From Capsaspora owczarzaki ATCC 30864 (lineage: Eukaryota; Opisthokonta; Filasterea): 64,000 nucleotides of DNA. Position numbers and translations under genes: made by a program. Positions 13,301-57,413 of the stretch are shown in pieces. The notes beneath the pieces were generated by a model that ran no database searches, had not been told where the DNA came from, and was given only the letters and a program-made list of their open reading frames with translations. The stretch is taken from positions 558,001 through 622,000 of the forward strand of contig NW_011887295.1 in NCBI RefSeq assembly GCF_000151315.2, in the 5' to 3' direction. How positions within the stretch are numbered: the first letter of the stretch is position 1; every line of letters starts with the position of its first letter.

Positions 13301-16300
13301 GAATTGGCGCACGGTCGCCTGCTTTCGGCGAGGTTGACTCGCGGAAGAGCCGGCAGCAGCGCCGTCGCCCAACGCACCAGCACTTGCTGCCTCCAACCCT
13401 ACTGGCTGCGCATTGACGGGTGGGCTCGTCACCGAGTCATACACGTGCAGCGACTTTGCGCCGGCACTCGGGGCATCGTCCAAATCTTCGTCAAAGGCAG
13501 CCGCGCCAGAGGGAGACTCCATGAAAAAGACATTGTCCGTCCCGACAAGCAGATCGCCGTGGTAGCGCTTGAAAGGCGTAATGCGCATGGCTTGGAACGA
13601 GAGCACAATGCGTTCGTCAGGCGGCGGGTTTTGCGCAACATCGGCCGCCGTCAGATTGCTCAACCCCGTGCTCACAAGTGCATCGGCCTCTTCGAACAAG
13701 CCCGATAGGGCGTCGACAGTAGACTCGAGTGCAGCAGTCAGCAGAGTCATTGGCGCCGTGGGGGTCTGGGCCTGGGCGGCGCTGTTGGACACCACTGCAC
13801 CCGCATCTCCGGAGGCTGCGCCATTGCTGCCAGAAGCCGGCGGGAACAACACCGCAGCAGCAGACCGTACAGGCGGCGGGTAGTCAATCTGGCGAGAAGA
13901 GTACTTGAGACGGCGACGCATGCGGTTGGGTCCTTCTGTCGGGTCGAGCTGCCAAACAATCGTTTCCGGCAAGTCACACCACACGGCCCGCTCTTGAGTG
14001 ACCTCTTTGATGAGAGACTTCCACACGCGTTGGAGGGTGCGTTCCGTTTCAATAATGCGCCTGAGGCGGGCAAGCTCGGCCTTCTGCTGCTCGCCGAGCA
14101 GCGCCAATGCCGTGGAGGTGACTTGCATGGCATCCGCTCTGCTCGTTCGCTTGGCTTTGAGTATCTGCGACTCAAAGCGCGACTTGGCAGTCATGTTTTC
14201 GGTGCGCCAGTTGATCATCGTTGTCGCTTCCTGCTCTTTCCAAGTCCGCACTTCCTTCTCGCCGTTGGGGAGGAATTCGACGTGGAAGCGCGGTGGCGCA
14301 AACGACGACTTGCCCCAATCAATCCATTCTTTGACAAGATTTCGATGCTGCGCAAGAGACGCCGCAATGCGGCTAGCAGCGTCCACAATTTCTGCCCGAG
14401 TCGCCGCGTCGTTCGCGTTCTTGACAATGTCGTGAAGATGCCACATCATCAGCAGCACGGGCCGAGCTTCGGACGGGAAGTTTGTAATGGTCGTAAAGGT
14501 GTCGAGCAGTTGGACCAATGTGGCCTCGCGCTGAGACTGGACCTGCTGAGGCGAAAGCAAGAAGACAACCAAACGGCTCAGCTGCGACTGGATGGCAACT
14601 TGGGCAGCAAACACTGGGAGAAACTCGGCAGCGTGTGTGCCACCCGGCCGCATGGAGGAAAGGAAGGTCGCTATGGAAGCAGATCCCGACGGACTGGCGG
14701 TGCCCAGAGAGGCCGCTTTGTTGTCGCCGCTGCCTTGGTTGGCGCCGCCGGCAGCACTACTGTTGCTCGTGGCAAAAATGCCATTCATAATGCCAAATAC
14801 ATCGCGAATAAAGTCAAACTGGGCCTCTTGGAAGACAACTGGACCAGAGAAGGGCGTTCCAGCAACCGCGCTGGGAGGGACAGCAGCAGTCTGGGCAGCA
14901 GTCTGCGCGATGGCGGTTTCGCCGTAGAGAATGTGATCTACCGCCAGCGCACAAACAGACACGAAATTGGTAATCAAGTGGTCGTGACGACCAAAGTCGT
15001 CAGAGCTCACGTTGTGATAGAAAAAGTCCACCGTCTCCTGAAGGATGGTGCGTTTGAGCGACTGCACTTGAACGAGCGTCAACCCCGTCGTAAAGTAGAC
15101 TTGAGGCGCACTCGTGGAGGACGAAGCATTGGGAGTAGGACGCTGCAGCTTGGAAATGGCAATCAGCACCTCGTCTAAAAGAGGAAATTGATCGACGTTG
15201 CGGCAGGCGGCGGCGACAATGGCTCTGAAAAAGTCGACGACATCGCACATCATGGCAACGCCAGTCGCCTCAGGAATGGCCGTCACGACAGCCGGGATGG
15301 AAGAGGTTGAGCCTGAGCTACTCGTCGTCATGGAGGTCGCCCGCGCAAAGGACGCCCGCCCTGGGACGAACGATGGCTGCGAAGCAGCTCGGGCCGGGGC
15401 TACGGACTTTGGCGTTGCCGTCACGCCTTCGCCCACAACGGCTGGCAGCTGGGCAGACGCAACAGGGCCAAAGGTCAAGCGCACCAACGGCTGCTCGGCC
15501 CCGGAAATGCTAAAGCACACGTCCAACATGTGGGCGTCATTCACCAAACTCGTCTCGACAATCAACGGCGGAACCGATGGTTGTGGGAACTCGTAAGTCA
15601 TGGACTGTGAGTCACTGACTGTGCCGATTGCTGCCTCTGCGCTGGTGTCCAGGACGGAGGTAGGTGCCTCCTTGTCGTCTTCGAGAATGGGGGAAAATCT
15701 CGCAGACGACGGCAACGCCGCATCTTCCGTCTCGCCATCGGCGTGTGCGTGAATATGTTGCTGGATGAGCAGCATCATGGTGTGCGCGTGCATGCCCGAG
15801 ACGACAGTTTCGAGGAGGCCGGCCAGCGTCTCGATCAAGCCCTGTTCAAGCATCTGGCGCTGCAAGTCGGTTCGCTCGACAAATAGATCGCGCAAGCTCA
15901 GCAAGACGCTACGCCAGAGGGTGGGAGCGCCCACTGCGTTCTCAATCAGAGAAAGCAGGACACCCAGCATGAGCGGCTGCGAGTTCTGCTGCAGCTCTTT
16001 GGTGTGGGATTGGCTGCCGCCGTAAGCACTGCCGCTCGTGATACTACCCGAAGAATTGGTGTTGGTCGAGGTAGAAGTGATGGTTCCTGCGGCGGACAGC
16101 AAGGAGGGAGTTGCGGACGGTGCCATGTTGGGTGTGAAACCAGCGGACGTGCCCGAAGCGAGGGATGCAGTGGATGACATGTTCAGCGCACGCTCATTCC
16201 CCGCGGCACCACCGTGGTATCGAGGTGCCTGAGGGAACTGATGCACAGGTTGTGGGTGTGTCCAAACTCCAGGCGAGGCAAGACCAAACATGGTCGAGAA

Positions 16301-19300
16301 CGTCGATGAGGAGGAATCGGGCGGCGGGGTTGCAGGGGCGCTCGATGACAGATCGTCCTCTCGTCCCAAGCCAGCATCGGCCAGCTGTGAGTCATCGAAC
16401 GACGCGCTGTCGACGTGACCGCGGTGAAAGCTCAAGGGAAGACCTGCACCGGGCAAAACGGCGGGAGCCGAGGCAGGCTGAGAGTTGTTGGAAGACATGA
16501 ATCGCGACTGGTACAGCCCAGCCGGACCAAGCAACATGGTAAACAGGACTGCAAAGAGCTGATCGTTCACATCGTGGTGCTTGAGCTGGTTGGCCAGCAG
16601 GTGGGAACCATTCATGCGGAGGAAACGGGATCGTAGTGGCACGCCCCCTCGCCGCAAGAGTAAGTGCAAAATTTTCAGCAGCGCAATTCGCGTTTCAATG
16701 GATTCGTGGTTGAGCAAGGCGAGAAGCACATCGAGCTTGAACTGATTGGCAAACTGCTCCACCACCGCGTCGGACTTTCGAACAAGCATGGAAAGCAGCA
16801 TGTCAAGAGTCCCGACACGCGCGGAAGCCATTGCCACATCTTGCTTGTCGTGCAGCACTTCAATGGAAGCGGTGTGCGGTAGCATGAACGCCTGGACGGA
16901 GCTATCCTGTCGGACGGTGGGGTACAGGTGGGGTGAAGCCGGGGAGGCGCCAACAGACGCCAAAGACTCGCTCGAGTTTGACTGAGAGAGCGAGCTGGCA
17001 GAAGTAGACGGAGACAGCGACGTTGTGGCCAAACTTGTCGTAGCTGCACCGAACGCAATCTCTGGGATTGGCGCTCCAGCACGCACAGGCGATGAAAGCA
17101 GCCGCCGGCGATTGGTTGGCCGCGGGCTTGTCGAGCGTGTCGAGCTCAGCGTGGGTGTTGCTCCAGATTCAGGAACAGGAGCAGCAGGGGAAGTGGTTGA
17201 AGCTGCGACCTCGCTGCTGCTGGAAGCGGCTGCAGCCATTGCCGCAGACCTGCGTGAGGCAAGATATGACGCTGATGATGCTGCGGACGCACTGCCGCTG
17301 CGAACAGGAGCGGCGGGCTGTGGAGCATTCAGCGTCGCCGCAGGGTTGGCCGTTGCAGCGCCACCCACGGTGGAACTGGTATTGCTACTGCTGGTGCCGG
17401 CGGCTGAGGCGGAGGACGAGACCGACAGGGTCGGGCCAGAGGAGGCGGCCGTGACCGATTCTGCTGTCGGGTGAGAGGCCACCAAAAAGCCCAAAATGTC
17501 TTGAAACTCGTTCGCTTCCCGCGAGGGCGCAGGCATGATGCTGGCAAGCATCTCGACGAGCGCGCTGGCGACGCCGCTGGGCAGACGATCAAAGTCATGA
17601 AACAAGGCGAGCAAGCGCTCGAGGGCATTCGCGCTGCGAAACTGCAAGAGATTAAACTCGCGGAACAGGTTATCAGCCGAAACGAGATCAGCCAAGCGAC
17701 GGGCGAGCGTCTCCTGGACGAGGATTGGAGCACGATGCCAGATTCGCCAGTCGAGCAGCATGTGGGCAAGAGCTTGCGGGTTTTTGACAATTCCGATTGG
17801 CAATGTGTTGAATGGCACTTGACTGGCAGGTTCCGCGCGCAAGCGTGGCTCCAAACCTGGCCGAAGCGCAGAGTACGGCGCGGGCGACGCGGTAGGAGAC
17901 GGATGTTGGTCGTACTCGCCCGACTGGTGCGCAAGCCCAGTGCAAACTGCATCAAATGTCACGCGAAGCATCTCCAGGCCCAGCTGGCAGCGCGTGGTGC
18001 GCATAAACTTGCCGAGCAGCTGGTAGCCACTCAGCTTGTCCATCTGGGCGCGGTTTTGTGGATGATGTTCGAGCAAGGCGAACAGGACACGCATTGCACT
18101 GCACTGGAGAGCCTCCACGGGAGGCGCTTTGGCAAGAAGATGAATGAAAATGCTGACGCCGCCCACGTCAAAGACAGCCTCCTTGAGATCGCGCCGAGTG
18201 CACACGACAGCAGGAGGTAGAACTCGCACGGCGACGGGGACAAGCAAACGATCGCCATCGTTGGCAAGCGATGCTGGCATCGAGCCGGCCGTAGCAGCAA
18301 CCATGGTGGCCGGAGTTGTGACATCAGCCGCGGCGACGCCGCCACTCGATCGAGAAGGAACTGCATTTGGCAGCTGCCCTGTGGCCAGCGTAGCCACGGT
18401 GGTTGTCAGCGACGCAGCCGCCACGCTGGAAAGGGCAGCAGCAATTCCAAGCGAGGAGGCTGTGGCAGCGGCCGTCATTGTACCGTCTCCAGCGACAGCC
18501 GCCCCACCAGAGGCAGAGACAATCTGCTGCAACGCAGAGCTAGCTCCAATAATGGTTGTGGGCACGGTGGCTCCTGAGGCAGCAGCCGCAATTGCGCCGT
18601 CCAAGCCTTCAAGAGCAGCTGCTCCGCTGGTGGTCGTTGTGGCAGCGGCGGTTGCTGCCGCCACTTGCGCGACAGCCACGGTGAGATTCGAGGTGGGTGC
18701 GCTCACTGTTTGAATGACGTACGAGCCACGAGGCAAGTACATGAAGGCAATGCGCTCTTGAATGTGAAGCAAACTGGAAGAGGTTTGCAGGGTCAACTCT
18801 GGGAGCGTTCGCGCACGAATATTCTGCTCATTGATGAGCTCGTGGGTAAAAAACGACGCAGGATCTGCTACAAAGCTGCCGCTGTAATTGGGACCCAGAA
18901 CAAACAGTGACCAGACTTCGGCGGCCTGGAACAGATGGTCCTCCAAAACCAGGACATGGCCCAACTGCCAGGAGTGGATTGGCACATCGCCGGTCAGTGC
19001 ACAAACATCCCGTGGACCGCTCGACGCGGCTGTTGCAGCAGACCCGGAGGAGGGAGGAGCGTGATGGTCGCTGGAAGACGGCGCCACCGTCTGGCTGACA
19101 TTGAAGGTAATGTGCGGCGCAAACGGCACATTGGAGGTGGCCAAATATGGGAAGCGAGCTTCTCCAGCAAAGGTGCCGTCCACCCACAGCAAGACCTTGC
19201 CGTTCTTATCCTTCCGCCCAGAGCGACGGGCATGCGACACGGCAATGTGGTGCCACTTTCCGAGGGAAATGGTGGCTTCGTGGAAGGTGGCGACATCGCC

Positions 19301-20736
19301 AGCGCTGTTCTTGAGCATAAAGTGTCCTCCGGCTTCGATGAGCATGGAAATGTGGCCCACAGGAGTCGTCATGGACATGACATGCACGGCGCCCTCGGTG
19401 AGCACCTCAGTGCCTTGCCGCCAGTCTGCATTGGAGACGGAGGGCCCGGGTGCATCCGTTGTTGGCGCAAACCCTCCAGACTGCACCAAGCCGGGGGAAG
19501 GGAGTGCAGAGGACGCCTGTTGCTGCATTCGCGAGACAAAGAGCACGGGCGCGGACTTGACGTTGGCAAAGTCAACGGGCAGCGTGTACGACACCACGCG
19601 CAACCACAAGGACGCGCAAAAGCCTTTCGATGACGAGCTGAACAGCGTTCCTTCACGCAGCGTAAAGTTGAGGGCCGCAGTGCGGTCGCGCTGGGTGTGC
19701 TGAAAGTCAATGTAGTGGGCAGGTGCGGGGCGGTCGCGTTTGGCAATGCTGCACAGCGTGTCGGTTAGCGACTGTGGGTAGCGAGGATGGCGCAAAAGCT
19801 CGAGGAACTTGCGCAAGGCGAGCTTTGACATTGAGTAGCGAGCCAGCAGGCAGATGACCTCGAGAACCAAGAGTTGAATGCGAATGAGGTCGTTGAGCAG
19901 AACTGGTCCCAGCAGATCGATAATGACAGGAATGATGCCATAGGCGCAGAGCGTGGCGCGATTCGCAATGTTGGAGCGAATGACCAAAATAATGGCAGTC
20001 CAAGCGTAGACGCACGTGTCGTCCACATTTCCAATGTCCAGCTCGTCATCAGAGCTCCCGACGAGAGGGGTGCTGCTACTGGCACTGCCAGCTTGGGTTG
20101 TTGGCGTATCCACGTTCGCGCCATGCTGAGTGGGTGGAGTGAGGGTGGACGCAAATAGATCTGCAGACAAGGTGCGCTGGTATGCCGCGTAATAGTGGTG
20201 ATCCGGGGCGGGTTCGGTCGCCGACACAGGGAAGCGAACGCGATGATCGCGGTCTGCGTGGGTTAACAACAGCACGAGCAACTCGATCGCCTCGGCGTTT
20301 TGAACGAGCATGGATGCCTGACAGTGCCCGCACTTGTCTTGGAGACTGCGCGACGCGTGGGCAATTCGCCCATTGCCAATCAAGGAGAGCGTCGTTCGCG
20401 GAGCAAGAATGCCACTGTTGGGAAGAAGGTATGGAGGCACTTGAGGCGACGGGTGTCGCGCGCACGACGCCGGCCACGGGTGCAGCACGGCAAGCTCAAG
20501 CAGAGTGTCGACGAGGTCCATGCCGTAGCACGAGTTGATCAATCCCGTGGCCGCCAGTGGCTCAAACAGGGAGGAAAAGCGGACTCGTTCGCGAAAATAG
20601 GTCTGATTGTGCGCCGAGTGGCTCATGGAGACTGCAATCGTCTGCAATAGTCGTCGGAGCAGCACAAAGACGGCATGGAGCAGTCGCGCGTGCTGCAAGC
20701 AATCCGTTCCGTTGGAAGAAGTGGCAGCAGACGGTG

Positions 20737-20773
<37 letters not shown>

Positions 20774-23482
20774 CTGGGACGTATCATTGCCGGCTGATGA
20801 CAGCACCTGCCCCATCGTCGAAACAACTTGGACTGCCCATTCGTAAGCGGCGGCAGACACGACAAACGGCTGCTTGGCCGGCTCGTTCCGCGCCATGATG
20901 CGGCTAAGTGATTCGAGAATGGCACCGAGCATGTCGACGTTTGCGTTGGACACAAAGTCGCTGGGACGATGACTTGCGCCTCGGAACACAGACCAAAGGT
21001 CTGGGATGATATTCCATGGAACAGCAAATTGAGTGACCCCTAGCACCTCAATGACGGAAAGAACGGCGCGTCGAAGCAGCGGATTGGGCAACAGCTGGTA
21101 GAGACGCGACAAGCCGTTCAATTGGTGAAACTCGGACTGGTTGTGCGTATTTTCGGTAATAAGCGCCCGAATCGTGTACAATACTTGGAGCGTAATCCCG
21201 TGCAAGACGAGGGATTGGACCGAAGCGGAATCGGTGGCGCGCAAGGGAGAGGCAGAGATGATGGCGGCGCGGCGTGCCTCGCTCCAAATCGAGGGGTCGG
21301 GCGAGCGATTGGACGGGTGCTCGCCAGTGATTGGCAGCAGCGGTGCTTTGAGAAGCTGGATGGTTAGCTCGAGCTCGCGCGCATTGCCGAGCTCCGATCC
21401 GAACGCCAATTCCGCCGGCGCACAGAGAAACTGGGAGAGAATGGGAATTGCGGCTGCGTCTCGCAGGGAATCGCGAAATCGCTCCGAGCGTCGCATTTCG
21501 GTGAGCATGTGCCGAGCCACGAGCAGAACTGCGTGTGGCGAGGGGCCGACCAGAAGGCTGCAATACTCGCGCAGTTCTTCGCTGAGTCTGTAGCCATCGG
21601 CCAGGAGCATCGATAGCAGATGGAGGGTGCCGGATTGGACTGTCTCGTGCCTTTCGTGGAATCGGCTCAGTAGATGCGAAACCATGTGGGTGGAGTGCAA
21701 GCGAGCAAAGTTGAGCGAGTTTTCCGCCAGAAGCGCGTGGATGGCTTGGATGACCTTGCGCTGCGTGCTGAGGTACGGGCTCGAGTCGTACAGCGCCAAC
21801 AACACCTTGACTGTCTCGACATTGCAAACCTCAATGCCAAGCCGCGAGCGCGAGGCCGGAATGAGCGAGGACTCGACATGAATGAAGGTGCCGACCGTGA
21901 CAAAGCGGAGCATGTGCTCGATGAGCTCTGCGACATTTTGCTCAGAGCCGTGCACATCGACCTGAAACAGAATGTGTCGCAGCGTCGCATAGCCACCTCC
22001 GGCTGAAAACTCATTCAGGAGGACGGGCGACAAGAGGAAGGACCCTTGAATGACAAACATGACTGCTTCACAGGCCTCCAGGGCAAGCGTCGGGTGCATG
22101 GTGCCCGAGTCGGTCAGAAGCCGAAGCAAAAAGGCCAGCAGGCCACTCTCAAACAGCACCTGCAGGTCTTCGAGCGTTGTTGACATGGAATCGGCGAGGG
22201 TGCAGCACAGCCGCAAGTTGCATCGCAACCAGGTGAGATAGAGGACCTCTTGCGGCAGCAGTGCTGGGCTAGGCGCGTGAACTAGATTTGGCTGGATGCG
22301 AGAAGTGGCGGAAGCAGCAGCTGAGGTGGCACCATCAGATTCAGATGGCCCTGGTGATCGAGATGACGTTGGCGAGGTGAATGCTGAGGTGAACAACCGC
22401 CGACCACCAAGGCCGACCGCATAGAGCAGATGGACGAGTCGACCCGAAGCAAGAATCTCACGGCACGTGTCGGCGCCCGAGATGGCGAGATTGCCCAGAA
22501 TCTGTGCGTACAACAGTGAAAGACTGGTGGGGGAGTGGAGCAGATGCGGTCGCGTTTCGAGTTCCGCCGGAATCAGCTTTGCCAGTCCCCGGGGAAGGTA
22601 CGACTCGGAGCTGCGGTGATCGTACGAGATGACTGGTAAGGTCGGAAAGTCTACACCGAGCGGTGTGAGGAGGGCAGCGGCGGCAGTGGTTGTCGTCGTT
22701 GGATGAAGCGGGTCATGGACGTCCCGCCGGTCCGATGCGCCATCCCTGCCCGTAGGAGTGGCAGCCGGCGCGGCCAAGTCTTCCGAGGCAGGCCAGTTTG
22801 AGGTGACTTCCATCAGTGCCATGAGCAGCACAGGCAATCCTTGGAGGTGCCGGCAATTCCGTGCCTATTGCCAAAATGCACGCACGCACATGAGTCACAA
22901 ACACATACATCCAAGTTAGAACATCCAGTGAGCATGAGTGATTCAATTGAGGTGTGGTTGAGAAGGTGATGTTTGGGGGGGGTGGAGGTCAGCTGAATGT
23001 GAGTGACTGGATCCGAAGTGGACAATTCCAGCCCTGACTGAAGGGTGAAGATGTATGTCTCCAGAGCCAGGCAACCTACCTCGCGTGTGAGACGCTCAAT
23101 CTCGAGCAGGAGAGCGAGTCCGCGGCCGCTGTGTGAGACGCCCAAGGTGTAGTGCAGCAGTGGCTGGAGCGCCTGAATGTCGCTGCGTCGGGCATAGGAC
23201 GAGGAAGACGACCCTGCGGTTGGTCCGTTCCCCTCCGCGCCGTCCATGGCAGGGTGGCCAAACTCTGGTGCCAATGATGATGATGATAATGATGATGATG
23301 TGGTGCTGTCGTGCTGGTGATGGTGAGACTGAGCTGAAATCGCAGCCGCCAAAGCCACCATTCCATCGCTGCTGCTACTGCTGCTGCTGCCGTCCCAATC
23401 GGCGAGCGGCACGACGACGCCTGCCCTGTAAGCAGACGGCACAGACGACGATGGAGCGATGGTGGTCGACGACGACGAGACC

Positions 23483-34196: not shown

Positions 34197-37100
34197 ATGC
34201 TACAGCAGCAACAACACCAGCAACAGCTGCACTTTGAGATGATGCACTCGTACCAGCCTCAGCAGACCTCTGGGTTTTACCTGACTCCTCAACAGCTGCA
34301 TGTCCATCACCAGCATCACCTGCAGCAGCAGCAACAGCAACAGCAGCACCAACAGCACCAACAGCAACAACAACAGCAGCTTCATCCCCTACTACAGCAG
34401 CAACCACCGCAAGGAATGACTCTGTTGTATGCAGGAGCAGCCACGAGCGAGGTGCGCGCGCCGTTTCCTTCGTTCCCAGCAACAACCTCGGTTCAAACAG
34501 CGGTGTCCTCCCCCACACTCTACCCGTCGTCTGGCGCGTCGATGCCACCGACGACAATGGCAATTTCCCAGCAGCACTTGCAGCAGCAGCAGCAGCAGCA
34601 GATGGCCTTTGTGCAGATGCAGCAGCCGCAGATGAGTGCGCAATATCAAAGCGCGTCGACTTTAACACCCTTCTCCCACCAGCAGCAGCAGCAGCATCAG
34701 CAGCAGCAGGCGTCGTACCAGCACCCCCACGCCACCACGACGGGCGTGAGTGGCAGCACGACAAGCAGCAGCGTGTCTGGGATGGGCTATGGCGGCCACG
34801 GTGCCGCTGCTCAGCCTGTTGCGGTGGGCTCGGGCGTGGTCCATTTTCACGCGCTCGCTTCGCCTTTTTTCGCTGCTTCTTCCTCCACACCCGCGTCGTC
34901 CGCTTCCTCCTCCTCCTCCTCCTCATCTTCCTCTTCTTCTTCCTCTTCGTCCTCGTCTTCATCAGTGATGTCCTCCTTCTCCTATGCCGTCCACCCTCAA
35001 CAACAGCAGCAGCAGCAGCAGCAAGCGCCTGCTTTGCATGTGGCCCATCAGCACTCGCACCAAAATGCCCCTTCTTTGAGCGCCGTGCCAGCAACGACCA
35101 TGCAGACCGACCCTTCGTCCTCCTCCTCGTCCTCGTCCTCATCGACTGCTGCAATGAGCACCTCGTTGATGCACGCGAACGCATCCCCGATGGTGGCCAC
35201 AGCAGGCAGCAGCAGCAGCAGCAGCACAACCAACATCATTGGAGCAAATCGCGGTTTCAACATGCAAAACAACCACCAATCCGCAGAATACTCACCCGGC
35301 TACAGCAACGTACATCCTCCCACCACAACAGGCTCATTGGCATTTTCAGCGTCCCCTTCTATTTCTGCATCATCGAACGGGGTCCAGTATCAGCAGCAGC
35401 AGCAGCAGCAGCAGCAGCAAGTGTTTGTGAGTGAAAGTGCGATGCGTCATACACCTGCAAATATTATCCGCCCAATCCAGCACGTTCTCCCACAGCTTGG
35501 CCAAACCCAAACACATTATCTGCAAGAATTCCATCAACAATATCAACAACCGCAGCAGCAGCAGCAACAACAACAACAGCAACAACATCAACATCAACAA
35601 CAACAGCCATACCATCCATGGAATCAACTTGTGGTGATGCACGAGCAACCGCACGACGCCAACGCAACCGCCCCCGCCCTCGCCGGCGCAATGATCACTG
35701 GCATGGGTGTTGGTGCTGTTGTTCACGGCGCTGGTGTTGGTGCGGGTACTGCGCGGTCTCAGAACGAGGCTGGAGGAACAACGGCATTGGCAACACCTCC
35801 TCCTCTGACGCATCATCTCTACGCGCCCAACTCTCACCACCACCACCACCCCCACCACCACCACCCCTCCTCCTCCGCGCACTTGCAGGGTGTCTCTGTG
35901 TCTGCTTCCTCTGCACAGCCATCCCTGAGCCACGGTGCTGCGCCGGGCCCGGCAGAGTGCGAAATCCCAACCACGGCCGCATTTTCATTTTCAGGCCATC
36001 GGCGGCAATCGGACACACCTTCAGGCGGTTACACCCTCAGCTGGCACGGCTCGCGCGCGCGCACGCCAACGCCCGCCTCGCCAAACCCAGCTGCTTCTGC
36101 TGTTGCTGTTGCGACTGTCACCCCCGCAACCATACTTGGCATGCACACTGCCCAGCAGCAGAATTATGGCGGCCACCAAGCCCAAGCGGACGCACACCAA
36201 CGGATGAATCAGCAGCATCCCGACCTCGCTTCTTCTGTTGCCCCTGCCGCCGCTCCCGTCGTTGCCATGGTCGAAGCAACAACACAAGCAACAGCAGCAG
36301 CTACAGACGACCATGCTGCTGCTGCTGCTACGTCCAGCGCGCCAGGCGCCCGCATGCCACTCGGCCGATCCATCTCGCACCAACCCCCGCCGCCACTCGA
36401 AATCCCGCAAAACACTTTGAGCTCGTCATTGAGCGCCATGCGATGCCTGTCGGATGGCTCGCTGCCCATGACTGCAGGAGTCAAGCCGCCAAACTACCAC
36501 TTGTACCGCGAGCTCTCGCCGCCCATGTCTGCGATCGGATCCTGCTCGTCCTCGGCGGCATCCATGACTGGTGTGTTTGCAGACGGTGGTGCATTGGATG
36601 CTCCCCAGCCCATCATCCCACAGCGTCGCCACTCGAGCGCATCGCCTTCTGTCACCACAACGACCCCTGCGTCGCTGATCGCCCCTGCAAACCCCCCGAT
36701 TCGACTCTTCCAGCTGTCGGTCATTGCTGGCAACTTTGGCGAGCTGTCCTTCCTGCCGTCCTTCCCCTTTGCCGACGGCTTGGAGCTGAGCATTGTGGCC
36801 GTGTCTGGCCGGAAGGTTGTCGAGTCGCTCATGTCGCCGCCGCTTCGCCGCAAGCGTTCAGACCATGCCACCATCTATCCAGGCACCGTCCTGTGGACGG
36901 TTCGCTTTGTTGCGCGCACCAACACGTCCGTGCCGAAAACGGATGCAATGCACGACGAGTACGACTTGGTCGTCACGCGATGCCGCAGCTGCACCAAGGC
37001 AATGGACGGCTCGTGCACGGGCGAGTTTGCCTTCATTGGCAAGCCTTCCAACCAAAAGTCCTTCCGCGGCACTCGCCTCAAGCATGGCAGCTTTGTGCCT

Positions 37101-37979
37101 GCCGTTGACAACCTCGGCTTCCGCTGCACCTGCACCTCGAGCGTCCGCAAGGGACACCATCGCACCGAGTTTTTCGCCTGGTCGTACAATGGTGTGCTTA
37201 TTAGCGAGCCGTTCTCTGTCAAGGGCCGCCCAACCGGTCTCAAGAAGAATGCTACCAAGATGCGAGAAAGCATCGGAAGCGAGTCCCGCCTCAACAGCCA
37301 AAGCTGCAGCAGCGAGGACGAAGAGGAAGACGAGGACGAGCAAGGCGAGGAGACGGACGAAGGTTCGCCCATGATGGCATCCGATGTGATTGTTCAGCAG
37401 CAGCAGCAGCAGCTCCACCAGCAGCAGCAGATCCGCCGCTTGAGCACCAGCTCGACCTTGTCTTCCATCCACGAAACGTCGTCCGCGTGCGCCATGTCGA
37501 TTGCTAATTCAACGACGCCTTCCGCTGCATGCTCGCCTCGCCTGGACAGCTGGCAGCACCCACCCGCGCAGCCCATCTCGCTTTTCAACACGACGCGTCG
37601 CCGCCACAGCGCCAATGCTGCTCTCGCGCTTTCTGGTGGCCCGGCCATTCGCTCGCCGCTTCTGCAGCAGCACGACGGCGCGCCACCGTCGCCCCGCATG
37701 GACTACAACCATTCCCCGCGCCTCCAGCCGGGCCAGCTGCAGGCACCTTGCCCGCCGCACAACAATGAAGCCGACACGTACGCTTCCTTTGTCATGTCTC
37801 AGCATCAAGTGGAGCATTGGCTCGCCAAGCCGTTCGACCGCGAAGCTGCTGATTGCCCTCCCACCTTGGCCTTGTCCACGGACGCTGGCGGCAAAGCACA
37901 CTCGCCACCTTCGCTTTACATTTCGCGCGAGTCTGAACTTGAAGCCGCCTCAATTCTCGGTGGACTTGGCATGCAGTAA
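34197..37979 (+). CDS. Large Gln/Ser-rich putative transcription factor with an unrecognised Cys-containing domain
   Basis: A single open exon of 1,260 codons. The first 830 residues are low in complexity: poly-Q, poly-S, poly-H and poly-A runs, as in activation domains. Residues about 836-1025 form a compact, non-repetitive domain starting FQLSVIAGNFGELSF. It contains VVTRCRSCTKAMDGSC (cysteines near 929-940), FRGTRLKHGSFVPAVD, FRCTCTSSVRKG and ISEPFSVKGRPTGLKK. The alternation of hydrophobic residues suggests a beta-sandwich, and the VVTRC then C-x-C layout recalls, weakly, Rel/p53-like DNA-binding folds. A basic segment (GLKKNATKMR) and an acidic run (EDEEEDEDEQGEE) follow, then another Gln/Ser region. 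I do not recognise the family. The ATG follows a T-rich leader with no stop-free extension, so it is probably the start unless an upstream exon is spliced on. Confidence 0.75.
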   Translation: MLQQQQHQQQLHFEMMHSYQPQQTSGFYLTPQQLHVHHQHHLQQQQQQQQHQQHQQQQQQQLHPLLQQQPPQGMTLLYAGAATSEVRAPFPSFPATTSVQTAVSSPTLYPSSGASMPPTTMAISQQHLQQQQQQQMAFVQMQQPQMSAQYQSASTLTPFSHQQQQQHQQQQASYQHPHATTTGVSGSTTSSSVSGMGYGGHGAAAQPVAVGSGVVHFHALASPFFAASSSTPASSASSSSSSSSSSSSSSSSSSSSVMSSFSYAVHPQQQQQQQQQAPALHVAHQHSHQNAPSLSAVPATTMQTDPSSSSSSSSSSTAAMSTSLMHANASPMVATAGSSSSSSTTNIIGANRGFNMQNNHQSAEYSPGYSNVHPPTTTGSLAFSASPSISASSNGVQYQQQQQQQQQQVFVSESAMRHTPANIIRPIQHVLPQLGQTQTHYLQEFHQQYQQPQQQQQQQQQQQHQHQQQQPYHPWNQLVVMHEQPHDANATAPALAGAMITGMGVGAVVHGAGVGAGTARSQNEAGGTTALATPPPLTHHLYAPNSHHHHHPHHHHPSSSAHLQGVSVSASSAQPSLSHGAAPGPAECEIPTTAAFSFSGHRRQSDTPSGGYTLSWHGSRARTPTPASPNPAASAVAVATVTPATILGMHTAQQQNYGGHQAQADAHQRMNQQHPDLASSVAPAAAPVVAMVEATTQATAAATDDHAAAAATSSAPGARMPLGRSISHQPPPPLEIPQNTLSSSLSAMRCLSDGSLPMTAGVKPPNYHLYRELSPPMSAIGSCSSSAASMTGVFADGGALDAPQPIIPQRRHSSASPSVTTTTPASLIAPANPPIRLFQLSVIAGNFGELSFLPSFPFADGLELSIVAVSGRKVVESLMSPPLRRKRSDHATIYPGTVLWTVRFVARTNTSVPKTDAMHDEYDLVVTRCRSCTKAMDGSCTGEFAFIGKPSNQKSFRGTRLKHGSFVPAVDNLGFRCTCTSSVRKGHHRTEFFAWSYNGVLISEPFSVKGRPTGLKKNATKMRESIGSESRLNSQSCSSEDEEEDEDEQGEETDEGSPMMASDVIVQQQQQQLHQQQQIRRLSTSSTLSSIHETSSACAMSIANSTTPSAACSPRLDSWQHPPAQPISLFNTTRRRHSANAALALSGGPAIRSPLLQQHDGAPPSPRMDYNHSPRLQPGQLQAPCPPHNNEADTYASFVMSQHQVEHWLAKPFDREAADCPPTLALSTDAGGKAHSPPSLYISRESELEAASILGGLGMQ

Positions 37980-43947: not shown

Positions 43948-46900
43948 ATGTCTGCTGCTACAGTGCTCGTTCGCGATGACGCGCCCACCGCCGACGCCAC
44001 CGCCGAGCCCGTCGCCATCGCTCTCGAGTCTGACGGAACGCTCCTTCTGACCAAGCTCGCCGAGCGCTTTGCCGGTGCCACTGGTCTTCGGTCAGTGTGT
44101 GCTCTGCTGCCTTTCCAACGTCTTCCCGTCGTTTTCCTTCAACCCCCACAATGCTTCAACCCACTCCTCCTCCAGCCATCGCCTCACTTTCACCATCGCC
44201 AACGCAAGCACGCACTCTACTCAACTCTCGTCCAACTCGGCATTTTGGGCGCTGTGCCGTTGGTGGCTGGTTTGTCAGCAATCGCGATCTTACTTTTTTT
44301 TTTCTTTTTTTTTTTGAATGGTTGCTGGCTTTGGGCTTTGACACGCTGGTTTGTGTAGATTCCACCCTGAGGACGCCCCCGACACCTTCAAGACTGTGCG
44401 CCTGGAGAACGGCGCCTTGCACGCACCCGAAGGCGCTGCCTGGAAGCCCGTCTTCTTTGTCGTTCGCGCTGAATCGACTCCCGCTGTCGCTGCCGCCGCC
44501 GCCGCCGCTGCTGCTGCTGCTACTACTACTACTGCTGCTGCTGCTGCTCCTGCGACTGCTACTACCACCACTGCTGATGCATCGTCCAACGGCGCCGCTT
44601 CTGGTACGTGGTGCCACTGTTGTCATTCCCCAAGCCTCGATCGTCACTGACGCTGACATCCCCGTTGTTTGTGATTGTAATTGCGTACAGATGGCAGTGC
44701 TGGTGGCGTCAAGCGCAAGGCGGAGGATGAAGCTGATGACGGTCCTCGCAAGAAGGAGAACTGCTACAAGTGTGGCGGTGAGGCGTTCGGGCTATTCTCG
44801 TGAATGCGCACTGCCTACCTATCCGTAACTCTCACCATCATCCATTTTTGCGCGCTTTGATAGGCTTTGGTCACATCCAGGACTTTTGCCCTTCCCCTTC
44901 CGGCTCGATCGATATGGAGGGCGCTGTTGAATGCCACCTTTGCAAGGGCAAGGGCCACGTCAAGATGCGCTGCCCTAACAGTGTCCCCAGCAATGTCTGC
45001 TATCTGTGCCAAATGCCTGGCCACTTTGCTCGGTACGTTCACCCCATGTCTGCTACTTCAACGCCTTTTTTTTTTTGTTTTTGTTTTTGCTCACTCTCCT
45101 AATTTCCTCGTTTAATTCACTTCACCTCGGCTTGATTAGCGAGTGCCCGCGCGGTCGCGGTATGTAAATCTCACACTCTTCTTGTCGCTCGGGTGATGTT
45201 GGGCCGTTGTGTGCTTGTGTTTGCAGAGCGAATCCTCCGCTGGTTAGGTTTGGTTGTTGGTTTTTTTGGTTTGGTGCCTGTCCTCTTTGGAAGCCGTACT
45301 GCACCAGCGATATGTCTGCTTGTTATTGTGAAATCTGGTTTGGTTTGGTTGTGAATCTGGTTTGGTCTTTGAAGGACCAAATCGACGCTCCTCGTCCTTT
45401 TCTTTTTCCTCCCCCTTCTGCCTCTTTTGGTTGTGCAGAGCGCAGGTGATATTTGGATGAGACGCGCCAGGCCTGTCTGGGATGGAACAGAGACGCGAGA
45501 GTGCTGACGGGCGAGCATGGGCGGCTGATGATTTTGGATGCGAGAGTGACCAGGTTCTGAGCTGCTGAAAGGCGCGGATGGTGGGTTGTGTGTGCGTGTG
45601 TGTGTGCGTATTTCGTGTGTGTGTTGTGTAATGTGACTCTGTGTCAACGCGCGAGTGTTTGATTTGCAGCGAACGATTCACATTCGTGTTTGAAATTTGC
45701 GCTCACTTGTTGTTCTTGTTTTGTTGTTCGATTTGGGCATGACCAGCAGTCCATCGCTCTCCGTTTCTCTGTTCCGTTCCCAGCCGGTCTGGAGTGGCGC
45801 TTCCGGGTGTCCCGAGCTGCTTCTTGCGATGCACTTAGCTTTCCTTCTTTTTCCATCATTCTCGATCTTCATCTCGCGCCCATCTCCATCTCTCTCGATT
45901 GTTAGCTTTTGGCACTAACTCTTGTGAATCATTGATCTCTGGGCTTGTTCCACGTTTTGGACTTTTGGGCTGGCGCAGATCCCTACGGGTTGAAGTGAGT
46001 AGTCTATTGAACTTGTTTGTCGAGCTTGCCGCTCTTTGCCGCCCAATACTTACCATATTTTGCTCTGCGGTCCTTGGACATAGTCGCGCCCCCTTCGGCG
46101 GTGATTCACGTCTGTGCTATCGGTAAGCCTCGTTTGCACACCTGGGCCGATTTGTCTTTTTGGAACCAACAAACTAACCCTTCTCTTTTTTTTTTTTTTC
46201 GTTCGTGTTCCAGTTGCCAACAGCCCGGCCATCTCTCGGCCAACTGCCCCCGCGTTGCTCGTGGCGAGCAGTCTCTGAGCTCGTGCTACAAGTGCGGCCA
46301 GGAGGTAAGTTTGACCATGGAGCGTGCTTTTCAAGAAGAACCCTTCCGAGGTACTAGCCACCGTTGTCCCCGTGTTGTCTGTTCTTGTTCTGGTTGTTTC
46401 ATTCCAACCTTTAGGGCCACATTGCCAAGGATTGCAATGTTTGCTACCACTGCAAGAAGACTGGTCACGTCGCAGCCAGCTGCCCCGACCGCCCTCCGGG
46501 TGCTCCTTTCTCTGATCGCCGAGACCGCGATCGTCCCTACGACAGCCGTGGCTACGACAGTCGCACCGCCAGCGGCTATGGCAGCGGCTACGGCGGCTAC
46601 GACCGCGGCTATGATCGTGGCTACGACGACCGCGACCGTGATTCGCGTGGCGGTTACGGCGCTCCCCCGCCCAGCCGCAGCTACGGCGGTGGCTCTGGCT
46701 ACAGCTCTGGCGGCTACGGGTCTGGCTACGGTAGCTCCTCTGGCAGCTACGGTGGCGGCTACGGCAGCTCGACCGGCTATGGCAGCGCTGCTGTTGGCTA
46801 TGGCAGCAGCTCTGGCTACGGCTCGTCCGCAAGCGGCTATGGTGCTCCCTCCAGTGGCTATGGCGCGCCCTCGAGCGGCTATGGTAGCAGCTCCCAGGGC

Positions 46901-47137
46901 TCGTCCCAGTACGGCTCCGGCTATGGCGGCTATGGTCAGGCAGGCAGCTCGTACGGCTCCAGCTCGAGCGGCTACTCTGCCCCTGCGTCTGGCAGTGGCT
47001 ACGGCGCCGGCGCTGCTCCTAGCAGCGGCTATGGTGCTCAGGGTGGCGCTGGTGCTGCTCCGTACACGAGTGGGTACGGCTCGGCTCCCTCCTCGCAACC
47101 AGGCGGCTATTCCAACCAAACATACACGCGCCGTTAA
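43948..47137 (+). CDS. TDP-43-type N-terminal domain + six CCHC zinc knuckles + YG/S-rich prion-like tail
   Basis: Nine exons, 43948-44090, 44359-44603, 44691-44777, 44864-45032, 45140-45159, 45979-45994, 46084-46122, 46214-46304 and 46415-47137, close in frame to 510 residues. Residues about 17-86 follow the TDP-43 N-terminal oligomerisation domain: [22 protein letters not shown], then [16 protein letters not shown] and VFFVVRA. An Ala/Thr-rich linker leads to [10 protein letters not shown], placed like the TDP-43 nuclear signal KRKMDE. Six C-x2-C-x4-H-x4-C knuckles follow (for example [14 protein letters not shown] and [14 protein letters not shown]), as in CNBP/Gis2. The last 200 residues are RG- then YG/S-rich repeats ([20 protein letters not shown]), ending YTRR. 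TDP-43's two RRMs are absent. A role in RNA granules and RNA binding is inferred. Exons 5 and 6 are only 20 and 16 nt, separated by an 819-nt intron. Confidence 0.87.
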
Positions 47138-47374: not shown

Positions 47375-49081
47375 TTAGTTCAGCAACCACACTCCCAGCC
47401 GATTTATTATTAGCATGCCTTCGTTCGCGTATGGCACCAACTGGCTCGAGGGCAGCATGATCTGGCCGATGAAATCCGCTTCAGACATGTCCGTGGGTAA
47501 CTCTACACTCAAGCTGGTCAATCCCGCTTCGTGCACGTGTCGCGTCCCAAAAGCAATGGGATGCGTGGACTGTTGCGTGGCGATCAGGGAGAGGTTGGAG
47601 CGCGTTGGACTGACAACACAAGTTTCGTGATGTAGCGAGCGGTAGAACGCAGTAGTGGCAGCTCCTCCAACCTGCGGTTGCAGGGGTTCTGTTCGTTCCA
47701 ACACGACAAGCAGGGCCAGTTCTTGCGGAACGGAATAGGCCGCGTCCGCCGACAAGGTGCAGTCATCGACGTTGATTGCATGTGCGCGCATTGCGGCCCT
47801 GGAGGCGACGCGGTGCGACATCATCCATTTCGCAGAGAACGCAGAGTTGTCCTGTACCGAGCTCGCAACAGGCAGAACGTCGCCAGCAAAGGACAGCCAC
47901 AGGAGCGCGGCGTCCATGGGGTGCAAGGCTTCGTCGCCCGACCGCCAAGCAAACGCGCCAATGTGAAAGGGAGGCGATTCAGCACTCGGTTCTACGGAAG
48001 TTGGTGTCATCGCCGAGGCAAAGTGATCCAAAAAGAAGGACAGGTGGCTCGTGACAACCCAGTCAGCCGCCCGTCGCTCGAGAGCACGGCGCAGGTCAAT
48101 GCTGAAGAATGTGCGGTGGAGATTGTCCACGGCATACAGCATGTCATCGACAATGGTGAACGATGCGGGATACGCGATGGGAAGGGAGCCGAGGACAAGA
48201 TGACCCAGACCGGTCGCTGGAAGGAGTGTTTGCGGCAGCGAAATGACAGACACAGTGGCGAGATCGAGGACCTGCAGCTCTGTCTGGTATTGCAAGTGAT
48301 TGAGGAGATGCGGCAGCATTACAACATAGCGGCCGCGGAAGAGCTGCATCTGTCGTTCGTACGCCAGCCGCGCGCCCGTCGCGCAGTTCAGAATAAAACA
48401 TTGTCCCGTGTCCAGCTGCCACAGTCGTATGGTATTGTAGCATCTGCCCCAGTTTCGACCCGGGTACGCTGCGATTGCTGCAAAGCGATCTTCCGGGTGA
48501 GGAGCCGGATTGGCAGGCTCCACCAAATGGCGGTCGCGCGACTCGAACGCAACATTGCCGCCGACCATGAGAATGGAATTGAGCGCAGGAACAAACACGT
48601 AGTTTGAGTGCATGGCAATCATCGATAGCGTGCTGCATGGCTGGAGTCGCGCTGCGTTTCGCTGCCACCAATGTGAGCCTCTCAGATTTGCACTCGCATG
48701 ACTTGTACTCGAGTCTGCAAGCGTCGCCGTTCCGGTCGTACTTCCAGAATTATTACCATTCGATGCAGTAGTAGTGGTAGTCGTCGTAGTGGTAGTCGTC
48801 GTAGCTGCAAAGGCAACCGTCGCCTCGGGTGCAAGGAGCAGCGGTGCCAACTGCAATCCGCCCTTGCGCAGCAGCCGGTCGTTGAATCTGCGCGCACGGT
48901 CTGCGCGAACCGTCCTGCCAGCAACCTGCCAGGCACGCGCCACACGCTCGCATGCAATGATATCCGAGAAGGACGCGAGGTGGCTCAGCACAATCACAAG
49001 CAACTCGTGCGGCAGCGTCAGAGCACCCGCTTCTTCAGCTTGTTCTTGTGCTTGTTGCTGGTCTTGTCCCTCGTCACTCAT
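47375..49081 (-). CDS. F-box protein, likely SCF substrate adaptor
   Basis: A single exon of 568 codons from the ATG at 49081. After a Gln/Glu-rich head, residues about 22-60 form an F-box: LTLPHELLVIVLSHL, then SDIIACERVARAWQVAG. F-boxes bind SKP1 in SCF ubiquitin ligases. The remainder (about 500 residues) alternates short hydrophobic strands and polar loops, with segments such as YNTIRLWQLDTGQCFILN and FSIDLRRAL suggesting a degenerate beta-propeller, but I cannot assign WD40 or Kelch repeats. An in-frame ATG at 49225 would add 48 mostly Ser/Thr/Lys residues; I chose the downstream ATG because its acidic MSDEG start is more typical and the extension looks like leader sequence. A poly-Thr run lies near residue 90. 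It is divergent from the thioesterase gene. Confidence 0.75.
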   Translation of the reverse strand: MSDEGQDQQQAQEQAEEAGALTLPHELLVIVLSHLASFSDIIACERVARAWQVAGRTVRADRARRFNDRLLRKGGLQLAPLLLAPEATVAFAATTTTTTTTTTTTASNGNNSGSTTGTATLADSSTSHASANLRGSHWWQRNAARLQPCSTLSMIAMHSNYVFVPALNSILMVGGNVAFESRDRHLVEPANPAPHPEDRFAAIAAYPGRNWGRCYNTIRLWQLDTGQCFILNCATGARLAYERQMQLFRGRYVVMLPHLLNHLQYQTELQVLDLATVSVISLPQTLLPATGLGHLVLGSLPIAYPASFTIVDDMLYAVDNLHRTFFSIDLRRALERRAADWVVTSHLSFFLDHFASAMTPTSVEPSAESPPFHIGAFAWRSGDEALHPMDAALLWLSFAGDVLPVASSVQDNSAFSAKWMMSHRVASRAAMRAHAINVDDCTLSADAAYSVPQELALLVVLERTEPLQPQVGGAATTAFYRSLHHETCVVSPTRSNLSLIATQQSTHPIAFGTRHVHEAGLTSLSVELPTDMSEADFIGQIMLPSSQLVPYANEGMLIINRLGVWLLN

Positions 49082-49307
49082 TTTGCTGGGTGGTGAGTAC
49101 TTGGCTTTTTTTGAGCCTTTTTTTGTTGTACTGTTAGTGTTTGTGTTTACTTGGCTGAGCAACGTTGAGAACTCATTTGATGACTGAGGTGAGACTTTGC
49201 TGAGCAACAGTACGGCATTGTGCATTTTGGCGCTGTTTCATCACTGCATCATCTGTATTCGAGACACTCTTCCTTTGTTGACGAATATCGCTCGGATTTG
49301 CTCATAG

Positions 49308-54070: not shown

Positions 54071-55165
54071 TCAGTCGCTGTCGCTGTCGCCGCCCTTTTC
54101 GTCGTTCTTTCCGGCTTTCTTCGGACCCACTCGATCGGCCTTGCGTGAGTGTGTTTTCAGCTTGGAGTCGGAAAACTTGTGCTTGTCCTTGCGTGACATG
54201 GACTTTTTGTTGCGGCAGCCTTCGCCACCCTCCCAGTACCGGGTGGATGTATCGGCCGTCAAGGCTTTGCCGCAGCTGCATGGCTTGTGTGCCGCAAAGT
54301 TTTGTTCCTTGGAGCAAAAGCCGCAAATCATGCGGGTGGCCCATTGCGGATGATGACCGTCCGGCGTGTTCTCGTTGTGGCAAATGTCGCACGCGAACGC
54401 TCGACCACAGCACGGGAATCGCACCCAACGGTAGGACTTCTTGTAGTGGGCACACGTTCCAAAGTCCGGCAAGGGAGAGCCGGGTTTGATGTTGGGATCC
54501 TTGACGGGGCGCGGACGCTTGGAGGTGAGCAGTCGCTTGCCCATGTTGGTCACGCCAGAGGCAGACTTGCCGCCAGTCGCGTCATTGCTGGTTCCAGCAG
54601 CGTCGCTGCCTTCCAAGTGCCGAACAAACGTGATGCTCGTCAACGCGACGGACATGCTTTCGTGGCAGTGGCGGCAGGGATGCGTGCGCGTTTCGCCGAG
54701 CACGAACGGGGACTGTCGAATGGTCGACTCGTTCATGCAAGCGAGGCATTGGAAGGTGACCTCAGAATCGTGCGAAACGACGTCCACGGCAGAGCAGCCC
54801 GCCATTTCGAGGTAGCCGAGTGCGGGCGATGCTGCGTGCACGATGGCTGGCCGAAGATGCACGCTGAATGCCGACCGACACCGCTCACATTCACCTGCCG
54901 GCGAGGAGAGTGGTCGCAGTTTGATGTCGAGGCTGGCCTTGCATCGGGAGCACTGTAAACTCAGATGCAGCAGCTCGACGCGCAAGAGGGCAATGTTGGT
55001 CATCTGCAAGCTTGTCAGCCGAACTTCCGTGCCTTTCGGCGCCGCAGCAGCAGCCATGGCCGAGAGTTGTGGCATGGCCGACGCGAACTCGTCTGTTTGG
55101 TCCTCGCCCGATTCCGCATTGTCCTCGCCAGAGTCTGCTGCATCGTCGCTCACGTCATCCAAATT

Positions 55166-55199
<34 letters not shown>

Positions 55200-57043
55200 T
55201 CGCTGTCCACGCCGGCAAAGACGTCGTTCGAGTTGAATCGCTCTTGTTCGGGCGGCTTGGATGTGGCAGTCACCTTTGCAGCGTTTGAACCAGACGAAAT
55301 CGCGTTGCTGGCAACGGATGCAGCACCCGCGTTACTGTTACTGGGTCCGTTGTTGATTGTGCGAGGAGGGGTTGGTTCGGCTGCGGCTTCTTCAGAGCCA
55401 TAGACTTTGGTTCTCAGCTCTGTGGCACTCACGAATTTCAGCGTCTTCTGAATCTCGTCATCGCGCCGCATTTGGCGTCCGGCCTCGACAAACAGGCGCT
55501 CGAGGTTCTTGTCCAGCCACTTGAGAAACGGGCGAATCATGAGCAACGGTGTCTGAGACTGCACGTCAGGCGCGGCACCCGATGCAGGCTGCACAAACTT
55601 GCTTGAGAGCACGAGTTGGTGTTGCTCCGCAATCGGCGCAACCAGCAGCCGATTCAGAAATCCGACAAAACGCTCGGGCATGGTCTGGGTGGGCAGCGCC
55701 GTAATTGCAGGCGGCAAAAGAGGATACCGAGGACCAAGCGCCACCTGCAAACGGATTGCATCAACCTCAAACGGCCAATCGGGGTCGGTCGGCACCACAT
55801 CAAACGTGATGGTGGCGACTGGTGTCGTGCTCGAAACCTCGTCTGGTTGCAGCTGCGCCGAAGTGAAGCGACGCTTGAGCGCAGTCAGTTCTGCTGCGCG
55901 CAGCTGTTGCAACTGCACATCGAAGAGTGCAGCGACTGTGATGGTAGGCGGCGGGGCTGGAGCTGCTGTTTGGGGGTTTTCGGGGGTGGCAGGTGCCTTT
56001 GATGCCGTCATGCTGCTGCTGCTGCTGGGAACGGCGGCGGTCGCAGAAGTCGCGGCGGAGCGCTTGGACAGGTTTTGGCGCCGAGATTTCTGGCTGGAGG
56101 CAGGCTCCTCGGAAGCTGCTGCCGTGGCGGCCTTGGCCTCTTGTTCCCCAGCAGCCTGCTCGGGCGTGGGATGTCGAAAGCGGCAGTTGGCACCAGAAGC
56201 GCACTCACCCTGACGGAAGAATCGGCAAACGGGTAGAGTGGACGCGCGTTGTTCTCGCGAAGGTCGAGTGCCGGCCGCAGAGCCAGTCGGAGCTTGGGCT
56301 GACGCACTAGCTGCTGCAGTGGTAGAGTTCCTGCCGTTGTGTGCTGCCGTGGAGGAAGACGAAGCAGGAGAAGATGCTGCAACTGAGACTGTCGCAGGCA
56401 TTTGATGCGAAAAGGCACAAGCTGCTCCGCTCATGCATCCAGCCGGCGTCAGGAAGAACTGACAAACTGGAGAGTGTGACTGCGACGATGCAGCGGCGGG
56501 ATGTGGCGAAGAGCTCGAAGAAGCAGAAGCGGCAACGGCAGCTTGGTTTCGATTGTTGTGGTTGGCTCGGCCGGGTTTGGTGTGCTCCGGAGCTCGTTGG
56601 TGTGCAGCTGCACCCTTCGACGCCTGGTCGTTGCCTCGGCCTTGCCTGTGACTCGATCGATGTGCGTTGTCCGTGCTTGAGTTCACGCTCGGTGCCGCAA
56701 CGGAGGATTCCTGGTTGGCTCCGCTGGCAGACGCTCCCTGCTGCGCACGCTTGCCTCCGCCACGCTTGGATCCACCTGGCGAGCTGGAGCTCGGCGATGA
56801 CTGCTGGGCAGCAGCAGCGCGGGACGACAAAGTGTCTGGTGCTGGACTCGCGCGATCGCGTCCGGTTTCCGTCATCAGCAGCGATTGCTCAATCGCTTCA
56901 GCCAGGACTGCCGAGGGACTGCTGGTCGCAGCACGCTCGCCGGTCACAGCAGCAACTGCACCGCGCTTGCTGGGCGATGGGGTAGCACTGGCTTTGCGTT
57001 GGCGGCGCGATCCCGGACTGTCCACCGCGACGTCGTCCGCCAT
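54071..57043 (-). CDS. CCCH + RWD + CHY zinc-finger protein
   Basis: A single exon of 990 codons from the ATG at 57043 (MADDVAVD). Domains in order: a disordered Ser/Ala/Arg head; CCCH finger 1 at about residues 191-211 (CQFFLTPAGCMSGAACAFSH); CCCH finger 2 at about 273-292 (CRFFRQGECASGANCRFRH); an RWD-like domain at about 380-520 (FEVDAIRLQVALGPRYPLLP, then PERFVGFLNRLL); an acidic Asp/Ser run near 611-632; Cys-pair ribbons; and a CHY finger at about 864-935 (CAHYKKSYRWVRFPCCGRAF, then MICGFCSKEQ). CHY fingers occur in RCHY1 and Hot13; CCCH fingers usually bind RNA and RWD domains mediate protein contacts. No RING is present. A link to RNA decay or ubiquitin pathways is inference. It is convergent with PSMC1. 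An in-frame ATG 60 bases upstream is possible but less likely. Confidence 0.9.
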
Positions 57044-57413
57044 GTTGAGTTTGGGTCTTTTGGTCTGAGCAAAAGATAGATGGACTGACTTATGACTCAA
57101 CACAAGGATCCGGCTTCAAATGACAAGTATCGATCAATAGAACAATCAAGAACGAATGTGCAACTCTCTTGGGCAACGAAAAACAAACAAAAAAAAAAGT
57201 ATCAGCTTTGGTCATAAACAACGATTGCAAAAACTCAAACACCACAAGCACAAACATCTCAGGCAATACAGTATCATCGATTCAGTTTTTCCTCCTCAGT
57301 TGATTGGGAAGGCAAAAGAAAGGGTCCTTGCGAGAGGAAACAGAGCGCCAAAAAAAACACCGTTCAAGCCAAACAATCAACACACACAAAAACCTCATCA
57401 AAAAGCAAGCAGC
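57044..57413. other. Intergenic, no gene seen (ACBD3 3' side to CHY gene 5' side)
   Basis: 370 bp of A/C-rich DNA on the plus strand, with several short A runs. The two minus-strand genes are in tandem, so it holds the ACBD3 3' UTR and the CHY-gene promoter. Confidence 0.4.

Follow-up and report, generated by a model that had tools for sequence, protein, structure and literature searches.

Among the closest described systems is TDP-43 (TARDBP) of animals, which has an N-terminal domain (NTD) followed by two basic clusters, RRMs and a low-complexity C-terminal tail. Arrays of zinc knuckles of the form C-x2-C-x4-H-x4-C are found in CNBP (ZNF9), Gis2 and Byr3, which carry about seven; to our knowledge these proteins have neither a TDP-43_N domain nor any other folded domain, and we know of no such NTD in AIR1 or AIR2. 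The FET proteins (FUS, EWS and TAF15) combine an RRM and a RanBP2-type zinc finger with a low-complexity region of the SYGQ type. For TDP-43, self-assembly through the NTD is reported to be needed for its splicing work and to counter pathological aggregation in human cells (PMC5491494, PMC5830921).

The window, that is, the whole stretch of 64,000 nucleotides of Capsaspora owczarzaki DNA that was analysed, contains a gene (43948–47137, + strand) whose product resembles each of these systems in part. The window protein shares with TDP-43 the NTD, the two basic clusters after it and a low-complexity C-terminal tail, but it has six CCHC knuckles and a tail of YG/S repeats; since RRMs are absent, it is not a TDP-43. 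Its knuckles follow the CNBP pattern and weakly match those of AIR2 (PDB 2lli, E 1.5e-5), but in contrast to CNBP, Gis2 and Byr3 there are six, in a 3+3 arrangement of shared spacing, and they are accompanied by TDP-43_N. The YG/S-rich region recalls FET proteins, but it is C-terminal, poor in Q and contains one RGG, with no RRM or RanBP2 finger beside it; the window protein is not a FET protein.

Gene model and domains of the window protein

The gene model was rebuilt as nine exons separated by eight GT-AG introns, with a CDS of 1533 nt encoding 510 residues and a single stop at its end, which agrees with the original prediction that all nine exons close in phase. Exon 1 (43948–44090) supplies the start codon and the first half of the TDP-43_N domain, while exon 2 (44359–44603) supplies the second half and an Ala/Thr-rich spacer; the domain as delimited by Pfam (residues 16–83, 43993 to 44464) spans intron 1. 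Exon 3 (44691–44777) encodes the basic clusters KRK (residues 137–139) and RKK (149–151) and the start of knuckle 1, exon 4 (44864–45032) the remainder of knuckle 1, knuckle 2 and most of knuckle 3, and exon 5 (45140–45159) the final Cys of knuckle 3. Exon 6 (45979–45994) and exon 7 (46084–46122) encode the linker that leads on to knuckle 4, whose first Cys is also in exon 7. The remainder of knuckle 4 and the start of knuckle 5 lie in exon 8 (46214–46304), and exon 9 (46415–47137) contains the rest of knuckle 5, knuckle 6 (46442–46483), the G/S/Y-rich tail (from 46493) and the stop codon. All exons are on the + strand.

Exon 6, at 16 nt, is uncertain: it is skipped in eight in-frame models, while 63, including the one chosen, place some exon there, and the alternatives alter solely the stretch joining knuckle 3 to knuckle 4. 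This uncertainty is what could be said for an exon model that fuses two neighbouring genes. However, of the eight exon junctions five interrupt motifs (GLRF, CGGFGH, AREC, CYRC and QEGHI) whose alignment with relatives has no gap at the junction, and in those relatives, described below, NTD and knuckles are encoded in one reading frame as a single protein. The earlier statement that two genes had not been joined is supported, and a two-gene artefact, now very improbable, was rejected on the single reading frame of the relatives.

The NTD was recognised by Pfam (PF18694, TDP-43_N; cut-off 27.1 bits) both in the whole protein (44 bits, E 2.1e-11) and in residues 1–90 alone (48.7 bits, E 7.1e-13); the profile match is significant and bears out the TDP-43-type domain first proposed from the letters. 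A sequence search of the PDB returned eight distinct chains at E ≤ 1, every one of them TDP-43 (E 2e-10 to 2e-8); solved NTDs of human TDP-43 matched at E 2e-10. Over the aligned part, the NTD is 39% identical to that of human TDP-43 and 40% identical to that of a snail TDP-43 (P0008).

Six C-x2-C-x4-H-x4-C knuckles lie at residues 154, 182, 204, 238, 264 and 280, which Pfam counted as five stretches. No RRM family was matched in the window protein at E ≤ 1, so the description of knuckles standing in place of RRMs was correct, and no RanBP2 finger appeared in the Pfam list at the same threshold. The original prediction also placed the KRK at the same spacing as in TDP-43, and this was wrong: KRK follows the end of the NTD match (residue 83) by 53 residues, against a gap of 4 residues between NTD and basic cluster in the snail protein. 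The two are alike only in the distance between their two basic clusters, which is 9 residues here and 10 in the snail.

The tail covers residues 297–510 (214 residues) and consists of 28% G, 23.8% S, 14.5% Y and 2.8% Q. It contains 21 YG dipeptides; 2000 shuffles gave 8.7 on average and never more than 15. The earlier comparison with FET tails holds for the tyrosines, 23 of 31 being in a [GS]Y[GS] context, but not for the low Q content or the single RGG. Tandem repeats of 21 and 33 nt occur within the tail, and would be in keeping with its recent growth.

Relatives with the same domain order

A search with the knuckles alone (residues 140–300, leaving the NTD out of the query) recovered four proteins from 39 candidates. 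Two of these, P0001 and P0003, proved to have TDP-43_N above the cut-off (79.9 and 76.5 bits); P0002 had the second half of the domain at 23.5 bits, below 27.1, and P0004, a fungal knuckle protein, had none. P0002 may begin with an unspliced segment or be truncated at its start. A profile built from the window protein and P0001–P0003 gave at least six matches, a lower bound because scoring was confined to the 8000 candidates with most words in common, and added P0005, P0006, P0007 and P0008; P0002, although a query row of the profile, was absent from the matches listed. Both P0005 (81.1 bits) and P0006 (70.8 bits) have an NTD and knuckles, while P0008 is the snail TDP-43, with NTD and RRMs. 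Weighing against the observation, a search with residues 1–90 alone found no relatives at E ≤ 1 among 531 candidates.

P0001, P0003, P0005 and P0006 have a common order of NTD, basic cluster, three knuckles, a linker rich in Gly or Pro and three further knuckles. The knuckle spacing is 14-8-20-12-2 in the window protein, 13-8-69-11-2 in P0001, 14-8-67-12-2 in P0002, 14-8-45-12-2 in P0003, 13-8-51-22-2 in P0005 and 14-8-43-13-2 in P0006. Thus a pattern of TDP-43_N, basic cluster and knuckles spaced 13/14-8-linker-11 to 22-2 fits the window protein, P0001, P0003, P0005 and P0006, and P0002 also, with half an NTD. In each of these six proteins knuckle 1 is closely preceded by a basic cluster, and the knuckle blocks of the window protein are 53–66% identical to those of P0001, P0002, P0003, P0005 and P0006. 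Given this common spacing, NTD-CCHC looks like a conserved protein family, rather than a one-off fusion. The proposal of an independent assembly, taken as a joining of three modules in this organism only, is not supported, as the same order occurs in P0001, P0003, P0005 and P0006, and P0002 has half an NTD; the search for that order elsewhere, which had been suggested alongside it, was successful in the same four proteins.

Two features set the window protein apart. The linker between the knuckle trios is 20 residues long, compared with 43 to 69 in the five relatives, where it is Gly-rich (Pro/Gly-rich in P0006); and the protein continues for 217 residues past knuckle 6, where the relatives end after 4 to 11. 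Among the proteins compared, only here does the low-complexity segment form a long C-terminal YG tail. Only the short linker and this long tail seem peculiar to the gene.

NCBIfam gave no useful match for four of the relatives, and viral contigs yielded no relatives, only 23 pattern stretches. The literature searches made found no description of an NTD-CCHC family, although public Pfam annotation of the relatives already marks both domains. P0007, from the red alga Rhodella violacea, resembles the window protein in its knuckle spacing, having 3+3 knuckles at 8-(138)-10-2 around a long G/Q/Y-rich linker, with blocks 41% and 48% identical to those of the window protein, but differs in lacking an NTD by Pfam; its start appears to be out of frame at knuckle 1, which leaves that absence unproven. 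The knuckle part may predate its union with the NTD by far, unless the out-of-frame start of P0007 hides an NTD.

Interface charges and a putative mechanism

In human TDP-43, the head-to-tail contacts of the NTD are reported to involve Glu14, Glu17 and Glu21 against Arg52 and Arg55 (PMC5491494). Across the window protein, P0001, P0003, P0005 and P0006, charge was kept at these positions in 24 of 25 cells; the four relatives each retained five of five and the window protein four, Ala replacing Glu17. Other charged positions from residue 14 onwards kept their charge in 21 of 30, a difference (Fisher p = 0.013) that is indicative only, given a small test on related rows with P0002 left out. The window protein also has Arg at the position of Gln34 and Lys at that of Arg52. 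By the alignment used, Ser48 corresponds to Ala, which is uncertain because an insertion adjoins this position. Human E17R is reported to lose most splicing activity (PMC5830921), and E17A/E21A to abolish oligomers (PMC5491494); by analogy, loss of the Glu17 equivalent means that the window protein may associate weakly.

The sequence shows which domains are present and in what order; that the protein self-associates, enters the nucleus, binds RNA and takes part in RNA processing is inferred. Our favoured reading, held at a probability of roughly 0.6, is that the gene encodes a nuclear zinc-knuckle RNA-binding protein, assembled through its NTD, which would work like TDP-43 without being TDP-43. 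The NTD would associate head to tail, as in TDP-43, and align copies of the protein; the aligned copies would let many knuckles bind one single-stranded RNA jointly. The basic clusters would carry the protein into the nucleus, and the YG/S-rich tail might contribute weak contacts that favour condensates. Its role in RNA processing would then parallel that of TDP-43, with an oligomerising scaffold holding RNA readers and knuckles replacing RRMs.

The same data could describe a single-stranded nucleic-acid chaperone like CNBP/Gis2 or AIR, perhaps cytoplasmic or acting on DNA, whose NTD simply dimerises or binds a partner and forms no polymer. The knuckles are indeed the larger and better conserved part (53–66% identity, compared with 21–36% for the NTD), their weak match is to AIR2, and the Glu17 equivalent has been lost from the window protein. 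Conversely, all five interface positions keep their charge in four relatives, and the basic cluster precedes knuckle 1 in every one of the six proteins; we consider a chaperone of this kind rather unlikely. A natural family that retains the NTD and its interface charges, but reads nucleic acid through zinc knuckles, would show the oligomerising scaffold to be a module in itself. The NTD-CCHC family opens two questions to experiment, namely the contribution of the NTD where RRMs are lacking and the time at which the TDP-43 architecture appeared; plasmid transfection of Capsaspora is in print (PMC6001378).

Origin of the domain and the genomic setting

The NTD of the window protein is no closer to those of its knuckle-bearing relatives (21–36% identity) than to those of TDP-43 (39–40%). 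Since these values fail to set the two groups apart, the NTD alone cannot tell which is the older. One doubtful possibility is that the TDP-43 oligomerisation domain began in a premetazoan zinc-knuckle RNA-binding protein and that shuffling onto an RRM pair gave animal TDP-43; if true, an ancient scaffold has been combined with exchangeable RNA readers. An equally tentative alternative is that a free-standing NTD gave rise to NTD-CCHC and NTD-RRM in two separate joinings, in which case the likeness to TDP-43 would say little about common function. This would suit NTD identities that do not separate the two architectures; moreover, plant TDP43 orthologs are reported to carry an RRM at the place of the metazoan NTD (PMC9676014), so an RRM pair need not come with this NTD. 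However, the NTD-only and profile searches turned up no free-standing NTD, though neither was set up for that purpose, and independent joining concerns origin, so the TDP-43-like mechanism is compatible with it.

The genome (27,456,641 bases on 29 contigs) gave six T-box and two Runt matches, in keeping with the Runx and T-box genes reported for Capsaspora owczarzaki (PMC6001378). The search for TDP-43 in it went exon by exon. PF18694 detected only exon 1 of the TDP-43_N/knuckle gene, at 25.8 bits and below cut-off, and missed the second NTD exon of the same gene. The snail TDP-43 query matched 23 places, exon 1 among them, the best RRM place scoring 28.5 bits at 30% identity; it disclosed no convincing TDP-43 RRM pair in the genome. 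Two RRM places were searched back against the PDB and rejected as TDP-43: L040 preferred PABP (101.6 bits, TDP-43 61.0) and L043 preferred hnRNP A1 (55.5 bits, TDP-43 25.1). Neither a separate canonical TDP-43, for which the original prediction had proposed looking, nor another TDP-43_N was found. A canonical TDP-43 is likely to be absent, which is unproved because the search proceeded by exon, one NTD exon was missed and the back-search covered two RRM places. Nor was a second copy of the gene found with P0001 as query, which matched seven places, three in this gene and the rest at 18.9 bits or less.

These searches also noted multiple knuckles in another open frame of the genome (C2:456509–456679), and two RRM-pair loci with equal scores and opposite orientation, about 56 kb apart (C14:132191–132688, − strand, and C14:188418–188915, + strand; L018, L019, L038 and L039), looking like an inverted duplication.

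Elsewhere in the window, an open frame of 1260 residues (34197–37979, +) had no Pfam match at E ≤ 0.001. A frame of 1010 residues (54071–57103, −) matched Torus and a CCCH zinc finger around residue 300, with a CHY zinc finger around residue 900, and is either an unusual domain pairing or two genes. Downstream of the TDP-43_N/knuckle gene, and tail to tail with it, lies an F-box-like frame of 620 residues (47375–49237, −; 26.6 bits, cut-off 24.3). The longest of these frames (10331–22837, −) extends for 12.5 kb and 4168 residues with matches to BEACH (397.9 bits), PH_BEACH and WD40, and is predicted to be a neurobeachin-type giant gene without an in-frame stop.
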